From Yersinia ruckeri ATCC 29473 (GTDB lineage Bacteria; Pseudomonadota; Gammaproteobacteria; Enterobacterales; Enterobacteriaceae), in the NCBI RefSeq assembly GCF_000754815.1, contig NZ_KN150747.1, positions 443,309 to 507,308 of the forward strand: a stretch of 64,000 bases of DNA. Direction: 5' to 3'. This document shows, one piece after another, positions 23,913-31,173 of this stretch. Position 1 is the stretch's first letter. The number at the start of each line of letters is the position of its first letter. The position numbers were made by a program, and so were the translations under genes. The notes under the pieces are model-generated. The model was not told the origin of the DNA. It made no database searches and was given only the letters and a program-made list of their open reading frames with translations.

Positions 23913-24884
23913 TTACTCGCTGGTTACGCGTAAGCTCCAATTAAATACACTGTAGTTAAATACATATCGTACAGCCACATAGAAGATAATCAGCGTGGCA
24001 ACAGCCGCTTCGAATGTTGCCAGACAATGGAGCTGATAACTGTAATCCCTCGCCAACTCGTATTGACCCACCAAATTGGCCAATTTATATAATGCCGTTG
24101 CCCCAATAGCCATCGGGAAGGTAAAAGCAGCATAACCGGGGCTAAAGGGTAGTTTTAATAACCGGAAAAAGGCCATATAAATTACCGCGGTCATTAATAT
24201 TGCAATACCAAATAGCAAAGCACAAACCAATAACGACGGGTTTGGTACAACAGTTAAATAACCTGCCAGACTCAAGCTTGCAGGCGCAGCCATAATTGCG
24301 ATTGTCGGTTTAGCCGCATCAGGAACTTCACGGCAGAACATAAAACGATAAATCATCATTGGTAACATACAGGCATAGCTCAACATGCCAATCATCAGCA
24401 GAATATAAGCTATACCCATGAATGCCTGATTAGGCACTGCAACGCTGGCTACAATAATTCCGACAGGTGGAACAAACCAACTCGGTACCATATGGTGCAT
24501 TTCAATTTCTTGTAGCCGATGGTAAATAAAGGCCGCCAAGAAAATCAGATGTATAATGACCGCTAACGACCACAATATCTCGCCAGAAAGTACGCTAAAG
24601 TTACCTAGCGCCTTAGATACAACCATACAACCCATTGTAAATGTAGGAACAACACTCCCTACCACCGGGTGCTTTAAATCAGATAATAATGTTCCGAAAT
24701 GAAGAACGAATTTGCTGGCAACAGCAAACAACAGTACCGCCGCGATCAGCGCACCGATATTCTGCCCCATTCCGTGTAAAGGTAGTGTATTTTCCAAACA
24801 CCAGCCGATACTTGAGATACCTAATGCTAAACCAGCGATTGGTGTCGGTAATCCTCTAATTTTTCTATGTATTATTCTCAGCAT
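23913..24884 (-). CDS. TDT (TehA/C4-dicarboxylate) family membrane transporter
   Basis: The 323-residue, strongly hydrophobic protein has about nine to ten membrane segments and family features such as PIAGLALGISSIGW near the start and PSWFVPPVGIIVAS in the middle. The family includes TehA, the yeast malate transporter and plant SLAC1 anion channels; the substrate here cannot be told from sequence. It is divergent from a LysR-type regulator 108 bases away, which probably controls it. No E. coli gene occupies this place. Confidence 0.8.
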   Translation of the reverse strand: MLRIIHRKIRGLPTPIAGLALGISSIGWCLENTLPLHGMGQNIGALIAAVLLFAVASKFVLHFGTLLSDLKHPVVGSVVPTFTMGCMVVSKALGNFSVLSGEILWSLAVIIHLIFLAAFIYHRLQEIEMHHMVPSWFVPPVGIIVASVAVPNQAFMGIAYILLMIGMLSYACMLPMMIYRFMFCREVPDAAKPTIAIMAAPASLSLAGYLTVVPNPSLLVCALLFGIAILMTAVIYMAFFRLLKLPFSPGYAAFTFPMAIGATALYKLANLVGQYELARDYSYQLHCLATFEAAVATLIIFYVAVRYVFNYSVFNWSLRVTSE

Positions 24885-24992
24885 TTTACCGCTCCGCCAT
24901 AATCAGCATAAATTAACAGAGCAAATATAGATATTTATCCTTGTTCAGGATATCCTTTTTTTATTGACTTACCGTTTAGAGAAACTAAACAA

Positions 24993-25907
24993 ATGGATAT
25001 CACATTGAAGCAGTTGAAGGTTTTTCTGGCGGTCGCCCAAAGTAATAATTTAACCGCAGCGGCAGCTCAACTTTTCATGACCAAAGGCGCGGTGTCACAA
25101 ACATTGTCCGAACTTGAAAAGCGTCTCGGTCAGCCACTTTTTGACCGTCATCATGCCCGTATTTTTATTAATCATGACGGGGAGAAGTTGATACCGGTTG
25201 CAGACGAATTGTTATCACGAATGAATGAAATCAGCGCTCTTTTTAGTCATTCGGCACAAGAGCCGACATTATTATTGGGGTGTAGTAAAACGATCGGCAG
25301 TTATATCTTACCCGGTTTATTAGGCGAGTTTAAAAACACCCATCAATGGTTACCCAAAATCACCATCGAAAATACCAATGATATCATCAAAAAACTCCTT
25401 AACTTTGATGTTGATTTGGCGATTATTGAAGGCGCAATTAATGATAATGATATTTCATTCACACCTTGGTTAACTGATGAAATGGTCATAATTGCAGCAA
25501 AAAATCACCCCCTCGCTTTGGAAAAAAAGGTTCCGTTTTCCGTATTAAGTCAGCAATCCTGGATCTTGCGAGAACAAGGCTCAGGTAGCAGAAGCTATTT
25601 CGAAAATAATCTGGCACCACTATTAACTAGCAAAAATGTTATTTTAGCGCTGGATACTTTCGACTCTATTTTATTCTCTGTTCAGCAAAATCTGGGCATC
25701 ACCTACGCTTCGAGACTCATCATCCAAAATCCTTTCTTCCAACCCTACTTCTCTATCATTAAAACCGAGAAACGTTTCTTCCGCTCAATCAGTCTCTGTC
25801 ACCACCGGCAAAAATATCTCTCTGCTGGAGCTAGGTTATGGATCGATTTTCTCAATCAGGCAGGGCAAACGTTGGAGTCAGCACGAAATAGTGAGATAGA
25901 GGTTTGA
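24993..25907 (+). CDS. LysR-family transcriptional regulator
   Basis: The 304-residue protein has the LysR helix-turn-helix at about residues 5-60 (LKQLKVFLAVAQ, TKGAVSQTLSELEKRLG) and a periplasmic-binding-like effector domain (about 85-295). It is divergent from the TDT-family transporter gene, the usual arrangement for a LysR regulator and its target. The effector is unknown. Confidence 0.88.
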   Translation: MDITLKQLKVFLAVAQSNNLTAAAAQLFMTKGAVSQTLSELEKRLGQPLFDRHHARIFINHDGEKLIPVADELLSRMNEISALFSHSAQEPTLLLGCSKTIGSYILPGLLGEFKNTHQWLPKITIENTNDIIKKLLNFDVDLAIIEGAINDNDISFTPWLTDEMVIIAAKNHPLALEKKVPFSVLSQQSWILREQGSGSRSYFENNLAPLLTSKNVILALDTFDSILFSVQQNLGITYASRLIIQNPFFQPYFSIIKTEKRFFRSISLCHHRQKYLSAGARLWIDFLNQAGQTLESARNSEIEV

Positions 25908-26185
25908 TGATGAACTTTATCTTTCATGCCTATCCCATCCATGCAATCTGTGTCAGGCTACAAATTTAAGACATAAGGGCAATTCGCACATTTACGGCTA
26001 TTATCTAATGTCAGGCAGAGTAAAAAATTAGAGCGACAATTTATTGCCTGGAGTCCAATCGCCCTGCACCACTATTAATTATTACGGCAGGGGATCACTA
26101 CGACAGGATATGTCTTGGCTGAATGTATCTTTTAGTACGGTTTGCTGTACCCAAGATACATATGAACTTTTTCGGGGTATCTCTC
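25908..26185. other. non-coding stretch upstream of rpfR
   Basis: About 280 bases with no convincing gene. Two in-frame start codons upstream of the rpfR start used here lie at 26123 and 26162. It presumably holds the rpfR promoter, which I cannot place. Confidence 0.45.
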
Positions 26186-28195
26186 ATGTTCGAAGATCAA
26201 GACACATCGATCCTGAACACATATTTTGGCACCCATAGTCCATTTTGGCGTTTAGCTTTTGATAGCCAAGCTCTGGAACTCTCTGCCGTCAAAGGCATTA
26301 CCAACATTGCCGTACCCCTTGAATCACTTCAAACAGCTAAAGTCCGCGCTCTCACTGCGATTACTTCCAGCCTAGAGTTACATATCACTATTTATGGCAA
26401 CCCGGTTCATTTACATCTAGTTGGACGCAAAATTAATGACAAAGAATGGGGAGGAACAGCCTCCGCGTATTCCGATACTGAGGCTGTAGCTCGCGATCTC
26501 GTTATGGGGCTTTCTTTTGCTGAACAGGTAGTATCAGAAGCCAATTCAGTTATTGTTATTCTTGATAAAAATGGATCAGTACAGCGATTTAACCGTTTGA
26601 GTGAGGAATATACTGGTAAAAAAGAGCAGGACGTTATCGGTAAAAATGTTTTTGAATTATTCATGACACAAAAAGAAGGTGCATCATCTCGAAAAAACAT
26701 TGAAGGATTTTTTAAAAGAGGTGCTTCTTACGAGGTTGAACGCTGGGTCAATACGATGAAAGGAAAACGACTATTTCTTTTCCGCAACAAATTTGTCCAT
26801 AGTGGTAGCGGCAAAAATGAGTTGTTTTTAATTTGTTCTGGTACAGATATTACTAAAGAACGACGCGCCCAAGAGCGACTACGAGTTTTAGCTAATACCG
26901 ATATGATTACTGGCTTACCAAACCGCCACGCCATCCATGAACGCATCAATAGCGCCATTCAAACCCGCGGAGAAAGCTCAGTCGGAATTATCTATCTCGA
27001 TCTGGATAACTTTAAAAAAGTTAACGACCATTATGGTCATATGTTTGGCGATCGCTTACTCAAAGATGTCTCACTCTCAATATTAAGCTGCCTGAAAGAG
27101 AACGAAATGTTAGCTCGCTTGGGCGGTGACGAGTTTATCGTTTTGATCGAAAACACCTCTATTATCGAATTAGAAGAAACAGCTCAACGCATTCTTGACC
27201 AAATGAGAGCACCATTCCGCATCGGTTTAATTGAAGTTTACACCGGTTGTTCCATCGGTATTGCGCTATGTCCACAACACGGTGAAACATTAGAGAATAT
27301 CATTCGCAGCGCGGATACTGCGATGTATACAGCCAAAGAGCTAGGCAAGCGAACCTATTCCATATTTTCTCAAGAAATGAATAAAAAAGTTTCGGAATAC
27401 ATGTGGCTTGATACGAATTTACGTAAGGGACTGGAACAACATCAGTTAATCGTGTTCTACCAACCCAAAATATCGACCCGAACCGGAGAAGTCGTGAGTG
27501 TTGAAGCATTGGTTCGCTGGAGTACTACAGAACGCGGATTAATACCGCCAATAGAGTTTATCTCATATGCGGAAGAGTCAGGATTAATTGCACCTTTAGG
27601 CCAATGGGTATTACAAACAGCGATGCAACAAGCTGTCGACTGGCAAAAGAAAGGCATCAAATTAAGGATTGCGGTAAATATCTCAGCTCGCCAGTTGGTT
27701 GATGAAGAGATTATCACTGCTTTTATAAAATCACTGGAATCCTGTGGCATACAGTCAAGCCCTATAGATGTTGAATTAACCGAAAGCTGTCTGATTGAAG
27801 ACGAAAATGCGGCAATTAATATTATCAAACAGCTGAAAGCGCTGGGTGCAGAAGTCCACCTTGATGACTTTGGCACTGGCTATTCCTCGCTTTCACAGTT
27901 AGCCCGAATTCCTATTGATGCCATTAAGTTGGATCAAAGCTTTGTCCGTGGAATAGACAAAAACAAGGTCGCGCAATCATTGGTACGAGCCATAACTGTT
28001 GTTGCTGAAACACTCCAGATGCGGGTAATTGCTGAAGGAGTGGAAACGGCAGCAGAAGAGGAATTTCTGAACTCACTTGGTGTCGATGAGAAACAAGGTT
28101 TTCTCTATGCCAAGCCAATGCCCGCAGAAGAACTGGAGCATTGGCTGAGCAAATACACTCCTCATCTTCCTAATGACTTAGAGGATAAAACCTGA
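26186..28195 (+). CDS. rpfR: RpfR/PdeR-type FI-PAS-GGDEF-EAL signal receptor and cyclic-di-GMP enzyme
   Basis: The 669-residue protein has an N-terminal RpfF-interaction (FI) domain (about 1-100, with SPFWRLAFDSQALELS). A PAS domain follows (about 110-225). The GGDEF domain (about 235-395) keeps an intact GGDEF at 313-317. The EAL domain (about 410-655) keeps EAL at 440-442, ELTESCLIE and DDFGTGYSSL. It closely resembles E. coli PdeR (Gmr/YciR) from memory. In Burkholderia and Cronobacter, RpfR binds the cis-2 fatty-acid signal through the PAS domain and then degrades cyclic-di-GMP. The ATG at 26186 lies shortly after a GGGG site and gives the family start. Its stop is one base from the rpfF stop on the other strand. 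Confidence 0.92.
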   Translation: MFEDQDTSILNTYFGTHSPFWRLAFDSQALELSAVKGITNIAVPLESLQTAKVRALTAITSSLELHITIYGNPVHLHLVGRKINDKEWGGTASAYSDTEAVARDLVMGLSFAEQVVSEANSVIVILDKNGSVQRFNRLSEEYTGKKEQDVIGKNVFELFMTQKEGASSRKNIEGFFKRGASYEVERWVNTMKGKRLFLFRNKFVHSGSGKNELFLICSGTDITKERRAQERLRVLANTDMITGLPNRHAIHERINSAIQTRGESSVGIIYLDLDNFKKVNDHYGHMFGDRLLKDVSLSILSCLKENEMLARLGGDEFIVLIENTSIIELEETAQRILDQMRAPFRIGLIEVYTGCSIGIALCPQHGETLENIIRSADTAMYTAKELGKRTYSIFSQEMNKKVSEYMWLDTNLRKGLEQHQLIVFYQPKISTRTGEVVSVEALVRWSTTERGLIPPIEFISYAEESGLIAPLGQWVLQTAMQQAVDWQKKGIKLRIAVNISARQLVDEEIITAFIKSLESCGIQSSPIDVELTESCLIEDENAAINIIKQLKALGAEVHLDDFGTGYSSLSQLARIPIDAIKLDQSFVRGIDKNKVAQSLVRAITVVAETLQMRVIAEGVETAAEEEFLNSLGVDEKQGFLYAKPMPAEELEHWLSKYTPHLPNDLEDKT

Positions 28196-28196
28196 C

Positions 28197-29072
28197 CTAT
28201 ATTGCTTTTGGCATCGTCGATGTATGCCGATTCTGTAGCATGACCAAACGCTCTATATATGCCAGATCCTTTGCTTCAATAGAGAATACTGAATCAACCC
28301 AATCCTCTGTAATATCCATAAGTTCCGAACGCGTTAGTTGCAAAACGCGCTGACGAACCCGAATCATGGCTCTCATCCCATTCAGTTTTGGCCGAATGGT
28401 GTCAATAAATGTACGGGTTGCGAGATAGGCATCCCCAGGCTGAAATAGCTTATCTACCAGACCGCGACTTTCATACCACTCAGCGATATGTGACTCCCCA
28501 CTCCATATAAGCTGCTCTGCAACTCGCATACCAGCTTTTCTTGCCACTAACGAGTACCCTCCCATACCGGGGAATAGATTAAAGGCAATTTCGGGAAATC
28601 CCATTCTGGCTGTTGTTTGCGCAAGCACGAAGTGATGTGCTAAAGCAGCCTCAAAACCGCCCCCTAAAGCACTACCTTCAATCATGGCGATTGATATTGC
28701 ACCCGTATCAAATCCTCGGGAAGCAGCGTGAACGCAATCGACACAGGCTCGAGCATAGGCCATCAGCGCTTCCCGTTTGCGATTTCTAATCATTTGAGCA
28801 AAGAAACTCAAATCCCCCCCAACATTAAACATATGAGGGACGACAGAACCAGTCACCCAAAAATCAATAGGTAATTTCGACTCTTTGGCAGCTTGCGCTA
28901 ACGTCATAATGTTTTCAATCAGTTCAAGGTTAAAACACGGACGTGGATTCGCACGCAGCAACATCCATAAGGTATTGCGATCCTCTTCATAATAAACAGA
29001 AACCTGGGACAGGTGGCCCGCTTCGGTGAAAGGACGACAACTTGGGAGGTTCATCATTTTCATATATTCCAT
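28197..29072 (-). CDS. rpfF: DSF synthase RpfF (crotonase-fold fatty-acid signal synthase)
   Basis: The 291-residue crotonase-family protein has Glu141 in LGGGFEAALAHH and Glu161 in GFPEIAFNLFPGMGG, the two glutamates used by Xanthomonas RpfF for thioesterase and dehydratase chemistry on acyl-ACP. Family members make cis-2-unsaturated fatty acids (DSF/BDSF) for cell-to-cell signalling. Enzymes annotated only as enoyl-CoA hydratase lack this pairing. It converges on rpfR, the partner gene, with one base between the stop codons. Several in-frame ATGs at the N-terminus (residues 1, 4, 6, 7) make the exact start uncertain. Confidence 0.9.
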   Translation of the reverse strand: MEYMKMMNLPSCRPFTEAGHLSQVSVYYEEDRNTLWMLLRANPRPCFNLELIENIMTLAQAAKESKLPIDFWVTGSVVPHMFNVGGDLSFFAQMIRNRKREALMAYARACVDCVHAASRGFDTGAISIAMIEGSALGGGFEAALAHHFVLAQTTARMGFPEIAFNLFPGMGGYSLVARKAGMRVAEQLIWSGESHIAEWYESRGLVDKLFQPGDAYLATRTFIDTIRPKLNGMRAMIRVRQRVLQLTRSELMDITEDWVDSVFSIEAKDLAYIERLVMLQNRHTSTMPKAI

Positions 29073-29468
29073 CCAATGAGTGAGTTAGACATGAGTGAAG
29101 CCATTGCTGGCTTATTCAGCTTGCTGCCGAAACGAAACGGCTCAAATAAAGCAAGCCAATAAATAGTGAGTCACTGGATGGAAAAAGGGAGGGATATAAA
29201 AGATATTTCGTTATATAAAAGACATTCTTTTGGATAGGCGAAGAGCGTTAAAAAGAAAAAAAGATAAAAACTCTATAACTAATAAAATACACATTTTTTA
29301 CGCATCACAAAAACCGTGAATCAGATGAAAGTAACTACTTGGTTTGTTTATACGTTAGTCAACTTAATGTGGTGAGTATGAGTATAAAGATTAATTTATC
29401 GTGAAAATGAATAGTCATTATGGATAGAATATGAGCATTACCTTTTCTTGACGTTAATCGGACTCTTT
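29073..29468. other. AT-rich divergent gap between rpfF and nupC
   Basis: About 400 bases without a supportable gene. A TGTGATGCG half-site on the minus strand near 29300 might be a CRP half-site for nupC, but the second half is poor. The region must carry promoters for both genes. Confidence 0.4.
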
Positions 29469-30653
29469 ATGCTACAAGTACTACATTTTATTTTGGCACT
29501 CGCAGTCATTGCTGTGTTGGCATTAGCTGTTAGCAACGATAGAAAAAAAATCCGCTTACGCTATATTGTTCAGTTATTAGCCATCGAAATTGGCTTAGCT
29601 TACTTCTTGCTACACTCTGATATTGGACTCCGCGTTATTAAATCCTTTTCTGGATTTTTTGACACACTGATGAAATTTGCAGCAATCGGAACCAGTTTTG
29701 TTTTTGGTAACATGAATGATCAAGGATTAGCTTTTATTTTCCTCAATGTTTTATGCCCTATCGTTTTTGTCTCGGCATTGATCGGTATTTTACAGCATTT
29801 TCGCGTTTTGCCCGGTGTGATCCGCGTCATCGGCACCCTGCTTTCAAAGATTAACGGCATGGGGAAACTCGAGTCTTTCAATGCTGTAAGCACCCTGATT
29901 CTTGGCCAATCAGAGAACTTCATTGTCTATAAAGGCGTCATTGCCGATATCTCCAAGCGTCAGATGTATACTCTGGCGGCAACCGCCATGTCGACAGTTT
30001 CAATGTCAATAGTCGGCGCATATATGACAATGCTGGAACCCAAATTTGTCGTGGCCGCATTGATACTTAATATGTTCAGCACATTTATTGTGCTCTCTCT
30101 GATAAATCCTTACCCGACAGCGGATGAACCTGAATTAACACTCGATAAGTTGCATGAAGATCAAAGCTTCTTTGAAATGTTAGGCGAATATATTCTGGCC
30201 GGTTTCAAAATTGCCATTATTATCGCCGCGATGTTAATTGGGTTTATTGCTTTAATTGCAGCTATTAATGCTTTATTTAGCAGTATATTCGGTGTTAGTT
30301 TCCAACAAATACTGGGTTATGCTTTTTATCCGTTAGCCTGGTTAATTGGCATCCCTTCTCAAGATGCATTGCATGCGGGTAGTATTATGGCAACTAAATT
30401 AGTTTCAAACGAGTTCGTTGCCATGATAGAACTGAAAAAGATAACAGCTGAACTTTCATCTCGCGGGTTGGGCATTCTATCCGTATTTTTAGTCTCATTT
30501 GCCAATTTTGCCTCTATCGGCATTATTGCTGGTGCAATTAAAGGGTTAAATGAACAACAAGGAAACATCGTTTCCCGTTTCGGATTAAAATTGGTTTATG
30601 GTTCTACACTAGTGAGCTTACTTTCGGCCGCCATTGCCGGTTTAATGCTTTAG
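29469..30653 (+). CDS. nupC: NupC-family nucleoside:H+ symporter
   Basis: Concentrative nucleoside transporter of the inner membrane. From the ATG at 29469 the protein is 394 residues, begins [13 protein letters not shown] and has [22 protein letters not shown] and the C-terminal [14 protein letters not shown]. Multiple hydrophobic segments are visible. The resemblance to E. coli NupC is close throughout; a TTG start seven codons upstream is possible. E. coli nupC lies elsewhere, so this copy could be the only one or a paralogue. Confidence 0.93.
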
Positions 30654-30658
30654 GTGGA

Positions 30659-30692
30659 AGTTAGGCTCTTGGATCACGCCAAGAGCCTAACT
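30659..30692. terminator. 14-bp perfect inverted repeat between nupC and the lipoprotein gene
   Basis: AGTTAGGCTCTTGG and its exact complement enclose a 6-base loop, six bases after the nupC stop and seven before the lipoprotein stop. There is no clean T-run, so it is either a weak bidirectional terminator or an mRNA-end stabiliser. Confidence 0.6.
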
Positions 30693-30699
30693 TCTTAAA

Positions 30700-31173
30700 C
30701 TAAAAACCAACGCAAACAGGGTGATCTATACGCATCACTGATTCTTGTGCAAACTGTGTCTTATACTTTCCCTGTAGCGTACCAATTGCCTGCTCACTTT
30801 CTTGAGTATTGGTATGGATCAACATCAGAGCCTCACTCTTTTCTTTCGCCACTAACCCGTTATGGCCTAACCATTGCCCTTGGGCATCAAAAACTGTTAG
30901 CCCATCCTTAAATCTTGGCGTGACCTCATTATCAACAAATGATTGCCACTCCTTCGCTGTAATTACCGGGCCATTCGGTCGATTGAGGCCAAAATAAAGG
31001 GTGGTTTGCGTCATTGGATCACCCTGCTGGCAAGCCCGTGAAACTATTTTCACAGTTGCTGAATTTGCTACTGACACAGGGCGTTCGACGCATCCACTTA
31101 AAAACAATCCTGATGCAATAATGACAAAGCCCAGTGTAATACGACGATATGAATTAATGCTGCGGATAAACAT
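30700..31173 (-). CDS. DUF3574-type lipoprotein
   Basis: The 157-residue protein has a signal peptide ending in a lipobox LSGC (Cys28) and a globular part with QTTLYFGLNRPNG, VTPRFKDGLTVFDAQGQW and a C-terminal VCVGF. This pattern fits DUF3574; no function is known to me. It converges on nupC. The 8-bp tandem repeat begins about 80 bases upstream of its start, so repeat-length change could in principle affect its promoter. Confidence 0.82.
   Translation of the reverse strand: MFIRSINSYRRITLGFVIIASGLFLSGCVERPVSVANSATVKIVSRACQQGDPMTQTTLYFGLNRPNGPVITAKEWQSFVDNEVTPRFKDGLTVFDAQGQWLGHNGLVAKEKSEALMLIHTNTQESEQAIGTLQGKYKTQFAQESVMRIDHPVCVGF

Follow-up and report, generated by a model that had tools for sequence, protein, structure and literature searches.

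Two adjacent genes, rpfR and rpfF, were located in a stretch of 64,000 nucleotides from the fish pathogen Yersinia ruckeri ATCC 29473 (contig NZ_KN150747.1, positions 443,309 to 507,308 of the forward strand; this whole stretch is 'the window', and positions are given within it unless a locus handle precedes them). Comparison with relatives indicates that they very probably form a complete RpfF/RpfR module inherited within Yersinia, with a working synthase of the Burkholderia diffusible signal factor (BDSF) type and a receptor that lowers cyclic-di-GMP. The observed basis for that reading consists of the genes, their intact residues, their pairing, purifying selection upon them, a single clade for the genus, and a conservation of the receptor's signal-side domains that depends upon the presence of both genes. 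The last of these provided the most interesting result: in RpfR proteins without RpfF, erosion of the FI (RpfF-interaction) and PAS domains exceeds that of the GGDEF and EAL domains.

An earlier note on this DNA had described a crotonase of the diffusible signal factor (DSF) synthase type, with Glu141 and Glu161 intact, lying tail to tail and one base apart from a single protein of the PdeR (Gmr) family that contains FI, PAS and intact GGDEF and EAL domains, and had taken the two for a complete module. Closer analysis bore out these descriptions. Both frames lie as the note had them, with base 28196 between their stop codons; the glutamates stand at exactly those residue numbers of the 291-residue frame and are invariant in 109 of 109 RpfF rows; and the receptor was placed by Pfam, by its match to the solved structures 6dga/6dgn, and by its score against the NCBIfam equivalog PRK10060 for cyclic-di-GMP phosphodiesterases (1164.9 bits, with a cut-off of 782). 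Both genes are present and their parts look functional: the module is complete. Its features, with domain boundaries set by the authors, are:

26186..28195, + strand: rpfR, FI-PAS-GGDEF-EAL cyclic-di-GMP enzyme and signal receptor, 669 residues, PdeR/Gmr family (NCBIfam PRK10060; Pfam; solved relatives 6dga, 6dgg)
26186..26470, + strand: FI domain, residues 1-95 (phmmer match to 6dga_A/6dgn, E 9.8e-24)
26525..26857, + strand: PAS domain, residues 114-224, with acid-site residues S168, N171, Y182, R186 and N201 (ungapped match to 6dgg_A, E 8.9e-55)
26867..27361, + strand: GGDEF domain, motif at residues 313-317 (Pfam, E 2.8e-45)
27398..28150, + strand: EAL phosphodiesterase domain, EAL at residues 440-442 and DDFGTGYSS at 560-568 (Pfam, E 7.3e-70)
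28196, no strand: single base separating the stop codons (rpfR stop ends at 28195, rpfF stop begins at 28197)
28197..29072, - strand: rpfF, DSF-synthase-type crotonase, 291-residue frame (likely 288 residues), Glu141 and Glu161 intact (phmmer match to 6dgn_A, E 8.7e-131)

Because 91 of the 109 aligned rows begin matching at the fourth residue of the rpfF frame, translation probably starts three codons downstream, at an ATG whose first base is 29063 (- strand), giving a protein of 288 residues.

Receptors in genomes without a synthase

A scan of 392 genomes of the family (Enterobacteriaceae in the GTDB sense), with thresholds of 1e-200 for RpfR and 1e-60 for RpfF, located RpfR in 138 and RpfF in 99 (including a broken gene in genome G005); all 99 genomes with RpfF also hold RpfR, and RpfR stands alone in 39. 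The earlier note had contrasted the Y. ruckeri pair with E. coli, which lacks the synthase, and it was from checking that contrast between paired and unpaired receptors that the present comparison arose. The orphan receptors (row L128 for K-12 pdeR, the others among L130-L142 and L182-L207) consisted of PdeR of E. coli K-12 and those of 38 of the 39 genomes with RpfR alone, the partial sequence of G500 being left out; two of the resulting 39 rows were identical, and since identical rows were counted once, 38 distinct orphans were compared. The receptor of G005 (L171), which lies beside the broken rpfF, was not placed among the paired.

Drift was scored at those alignment columns where paired enteric receptors show at least 95% conservation, with 54 distinct left-out paired rows as the reference. 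In FI, the orphans departed from the conserved residue at 20.2% of columns and the paired rows at 0.5% (40-fold); in PAS outside the five acid-binding residues the figures were 4.0% and 0.4% (10.7-fold), in GGDEF 2.5% and 1.0% (2.4-fold), and in EAL 1.4% and 0.7% (1.8-fold). An initial comparison of 13 orphans with 23 paired receptors had given 15.6 versus 2.1% for FI, 5.5 versus 1.1% for PAS, 3.3 versus 1.5% for GGDEF and 3.0 versus 1.5% for EAL.

In the Cronobacter receptor, PAS residues S169, N172, Y183, R187 and N202 hold the carboxylate and C3 of BDSF (PMC6361424; papers are cited here by PMC number and in excerpt), and all five are present in Y. ruckeri RpfR as S168, N171, Y182, R186 and N201. 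This site is altered in 22 of the 38 distinct orphans (8 N171Y, 7 S168A, 3 R186L with K-12 among them, and four singles). Of the 118 distinct paired rows only one shows an alteration, that of a Paraburkholderia metagenome bin (L093), and of the 80 distinct enteric ones none does; the Fisher p of 1.4e-15 for this difference ignores relatedness. Under parsimony, orphan state and site state each had to change 10 times; when only losses were allowed, there were 11 losses and also 11 site changes, every one of these site changes lying on an orphan branch. The chance that all 11 alterations would fall on branches without RpfF (0.344 of tree length) was calculated as 7.9e-6, a figure that assumes losses only and was made post hoc. 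Within five genera that contain both kinds of receptor, the site is altered in two of five orphans and in none of 17 paired congeners; the three unaltered orphans are what either a recent loss or no effect would be expected to give. The receptor of G005, with its broken rpfF, has an intact acid site.

PdeR of E. coli K-12 (L128:2758-4743) belongs to the same receptor family as Y. ruckeri RpfR, with the same domain order and with identities of 70% in PAS, 65% in GGDEF and 64% in EAL, but its FI domain is 38% identical and a leucine replaces the arginine that binds the carboxylate. E. coli has been described as having this homologue, gmr, without a DSF synthase, and a response to C12:0 has been speculated (PMC6361424). 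We lean, with modest assurance, toward a use-it-or-lose-it history for enteric RpfR, in which loss of the synthase (about 10 times on the tree, E. coli included) would have left the cyclic-di-GMP enzyme in place, shed the surfaces that bind synthase and acid, and turned the receptor to other inputs; Y. ruckeri would accordingly represent the ancestral, self-signalling state, and E. coli PdeR a retired quorum-sensing receptor. The Yersinia pair helps in this way to show what becomes of the receptor once a relative, such as E. coli, is without the signal maker, and the question of the input to PdeR becomes a testable statement: that PdeR, lacking a synthase beside it, has undergone decay both of its fatty-acid site and of the domain that contacts RpfF. 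Nothing on receptor-site decay after synthase loss was found among the titles and abstracts listed in the literature search.

The predicted circuit and its signal

The receptor displays the domain order of RpfR (FI, PAS, GGDEF, EAL), with Pfam assigning PAS to residues 123-224, GGDEF to 236-388 and EAL to 411-644, the FI domain being located by its match to the solved RpfR FI domain (6dga/6dgn, E 9.8e-24). Its GGDEF, EAL and DDFGTGYSS motifs are intact, and the scores of these matches, with those against PRK10060 and the crotonase family PRK08788, exclude chance. Against columns conserved in paired enteric receptors it deviates at 0 of 22 in FI, 0 of 65 in PAS, 2 of 82 in GGDEF and 3 of 107 in EAL, and its FI domain has no deviation at 21 columns conserved in 57 paired RpfR from outside Yersinia. 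With EAL and DDFGTGYSS intact, RpfR is predicted to act as a net cyclic-di-GMP phosphodiesterase that is stimulated by BDSF; binding and inhibition of RpfF by the FI domain are predicted, with indirect support from the conservation of that domain in paired receptors and its erosion in unpaired ones.

The same two proteins, domain order, convergent genes, catalytic glutamates, PAS acid-site residues and FI domain make up the BDSF systems of Cronobacter turicensis and Burkholderia cenocepacia, from which the Y. ruckeri pair differs in genus and in an FI domain that is less alike than the PAS domain. In published descriptions, RpfF dehydrates a 3-hydroxyacyl-acyl carrier protein (ACP) and then frees cis-2-dodecenoic acid by hydrolysis; this acid binds the PAS domain of RpfR and raises its phosphodiesterase activity, and the FI domain inhibits RpfF (PMC6361424, PMC4698668, PMC12838280); cyclic-di-GMP in Cronobacter was 3.9-fold higher in an rpfR mutant and 3.4-fold higher in an rpfF mutant (PMC4698668). 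By homology with Burkholderia and Cronobacter, from which the chemistry, chain length, direction of the cyclic-di-GMP change and feedback are all carried over, the Y. ruckeri module would operate as follows: (i) RpfF would act upon a 3-hydroxyacyl-ACP, most likely 3-hydroxydodecanoyl-ACP; (ii) it would form the cis-2 double bond and then cut the thioester, releasing a BDSF-type cis-2 fatty acid; (iii) the acid would bind the PAS domain of RpfR, raising EAL activity and lowering cyclic-di-GMP; and (iv) the FI domain would hold RpfF and restrain synthesis, closing a feedback loop. The Xanthomonas system shares a related RpfF (3m6m, 158 bits), but there a membrane-bound histidine kinase, working with an HD-GYP regulator, serves as receptor (PMC4504480, PMC4698668) in place of a PAS-GGDEF-EAL protein.

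Several observations weigh against a working module of this kind. A biosensor was tripped only by Cronobacter carrying plasmid-borne rpfF and not by the wild type (PMC4698668), so production may be low, and none of the literature matches listed was found to report that a Yersinia makes a cis-2 fatty acid. A167S, beside the acid site, is the one PAS deviation from the 57 paired receptors from outside Yersinia, and is present in all 11 Yersinia rows tested. RpfF scores 190.2 of the 550 bits required by the NCBIfam RpfF equivalog NF053515, a model that perhaps describes a narrower RpfF group. With respect to receptor decay, a tree-corrected independent-pairs test, which was underpowered, was not significant (7 usable pairs, with a mean of 4.1 in the expected direction, none opposite and a median p of 0.125), and neither was a smaller version of it (5 usable pairs, of which on average 2.3 went the expected way and none the opposite). 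Finally, one partner is broken in 3 of 25 Yersinia genomes (G005, G014 and G018), and the system may therefore be dispensable.

A related possibility, which we regard as doubtful though worth serious consideration, is that the module is real and its signal is something other than BDSF, such as a cis-2 acid of another chain length or a branched one, or that the signal is intracellular rather than diffusible. Chain length is not fixable from sequence, the PAS domain of Cronobacter RpfR also binds plain C12:0 (PMC6361424), and the silence of wild-type Cronobacter on the biosensor points the same way; on the other side, Phe47 and Phe91 of RpfF (by a three-residue offset from the 6dgn match, residues 44 and 88 discussed in PMC6361424) are, together with the catalytic glutamates, invariant in 109 of 109 rows, and all but one of the 118 distinct paired receptors have the same PAS acid site, a pattern that favours a single, common kind of ligand.

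Distribution and descent of the pair

An RpfF/RpfR module is ordinary for the genus Yersinia: of the 25 genomes analysed, 20 carry intact copies of the two genes. This count gives no support to the idea that the module is unusual here, and excerpts of PMC4698668, PMC4504480 and PMC12838280 already name Yersinia as a carrier, with the RpfR of Y. enterocolitica named in PMC6361424. Full-length rpfF was found in 22 of the 25 genomes and lies in two frames in G005; rpfR reads through without a break to residue 662-669 in 21, but ends early, after 172 residues, in G018 and is broken after 407 in G014. Neither gene was seen in G007 or G022, absences that were first read as losses and are not counted as such, because the genes flanking the pair lie at the ends of two contigs in G022 and part of the fetched stretch reads N in G007. 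Interruption of one partner, by an early stop or a frame break, with the other open was observed for rpfR in Y. pekkanenii (L046/L057) and Y. massiliensis (L047/L059) and for rpfF in G005 (L171), and may in each case reflect assembly error.

The locus by itself lengthens a known list of carriers by one species. A working module would put cyclic-di-GMP under fatty-acid control in a fish pathogen already studied for its biofilm; the terms rpf, pdeR and gmr are absent from the text of the Y. ruckeri biofilm paper PMC12112432, and no experiment on the module in Yersinia, Y. ruckeri included, was found among the titles and abstracts of the matches listed.

An earlier draw of 149 genomes from the family gave 43 with RpfR and 30 with RpfF, and a draw of 295 genomes across the order gave 15 RpfR and 13 RpfF matches, all inside the same family. 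A scan of named genomes found 323 relatives, from which 80 loci were kept; the genes are convergent in all 80, and 38 of these loci belong to Burkholderiales. The pair of the E. coli group lies between rnb and yciZ (both genes in 13 fetched stretches), and of 13 receptors without a synthase, 11 are flanked by rnb and yciZ, while in the other 2 a contig end intervenes. None of 16 Serratia loci has the neighbours of the Y. ruckeri locus, and none has those of K-12. As further observations, the two genes are separated by about 1.5 kb or more in G043, G088, G305, G546 (6.3 kb), G610, G666 and Paraburkholderia kururiensis (L119, 1.6 kb), where further DNA thus stands between the partners, and the enteric genome G559 has two copies of rpfF (C7:722529-723383 and 1005864-1006712), 69% and 64% identical to that of Y. 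ruckeri.

The earlier note had left it undecided whether the module was kept or regained. Yersinia forms one clade in the RpfF tree (support 100), the RpfR tree (100) and the joint tree (100/100); the RpfR tree places K-12 PdeR, like other receptors that lack RpfF, within the paired ones; and yicG and ligB adjoin the pair in all 12 named Yersinia loci. On these three grounds, loss in the E. coli line with retention in Yersinia appears more likely than regain. Acquisition by transfer from Burkholderiales is improbable in our judgement: the same pair is common in that order (38 of the 80 loci), the Yersinia insertion site is unlike those of Serratia and the E. coli group, and the block that holds the pair has a G+C of about 0.39-0.46, against 0.46-0.52 just upstream, but the joint tree separates Burkholderiales from Enterobacterales at 100/100 and groups Yersinia with Serratia, at a support of 81/65 that is not strong and makes this joining suggestive only. 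None of the RpfF, RpfR and joint trees supports such a regain, and the 'kept' part of the note's alternative is the better supported one.

The ratio of nonsynonymous to synonymous substitution rates (dN/dS), in three close pairs with unsaturated dS, was 0.013-0.113 for rpfF and 0.021-0.052 for rpfR; for the Y. ruckeri genes dS is saturated or nearly so (1.9-2.1 where computable), and the proportion of amino-acid-changing sites that differ is 0.029-0.112. Both rpfF and rpfR are under purifying selection.

RpfF among crotonases, and the surroundings of the pair

The best solved match of RpfF is the B. cenocepacia enzyme 6dgn (residues 4-287, 438 bits, E 8.7e-131), followed at a distance by Xanthomonas RpfF 3m6m (158 bits) and by the best ordinary hydratase (54 bits, E 1.1e-13), and the protein scores 408 bits against the NCBIfam crotonase family PRK08788 (cut-off 177). 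The numbering of Glu141 and Glu161, which we take to be the catalytic residues, is the one used in the earlier note. That note had held that a tree placing the crotonase with ordinary enoyl-CoA hydratases would speak against it; the tree obtained instead sets RpfF apart from three stretches in this genome that encode ordinary crotonases, with 100% support in the Shimodaira-Hasegawa-like approximate likelihood ratio test (SH-aLRT), although its outgroup branches are very long and a root inside RpfF is unsafe. RpfF is thus classed as a DSF-synthase-type crotonase and is predicted to produce a cis-2 fatty acid. That it might be an ordinary enoyl-CoA hydratase lying beside a cyclic-di-GMP enzyme by accident is highly improbable. 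In favour of this reading, Pfam assigns it to enoyl-CoA hydratase/isomerase only and the NF053515 cut-off was missed; against it, the closest solved proteins are RpfF, the tree separation has a support of 100, all 99 family genomes with RpfF also hold RpfR, and the FI and PAS domains of the receptor decay where RpfF is absent; the structure matches and the tree led to rejection of the hydratase identity.

The Y. ruckeri assembly comprises 3,772,809 bases in two contigs; the first 12,000 bases of the second are 100.0% identical to Y. ruckeri plasmids across 99% of the query in the four best records, which makes the organism Y. ruckeri and more than the 'Yersinia-like' of the note. Among named Yersinia, the 10 whose rpfR is uninterrupted have the convergent, tail-to-tail genes 1-26 bases apart. 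No RNA family or tandem repeat was found at the rpfR/rpfF locus, and scans for promoter-like sites (3, against 7.8 in shuffles) and terminator-like sites (6, against 2.7) were not used as evidence. The pair is enclosed by a block of lower G+C (about 0.39-0.46; window positions 23913-31173) between yicC and yicG, whose other genes we take from their sequences to encode a LysR-type regulator, a lipoprotein and two transporters, one of the TDT type and one of the nupX type. Of these, the genes for the nupX-type transporter and the lipoprotein adjoin the pair in 10 of 12 named Yersinia (not in L055 or L056). The TDT-type transporter and the regulator adjoin it in Y. nurmii and G009, and in L051 and L056 yicC follows rpfR without either of them.

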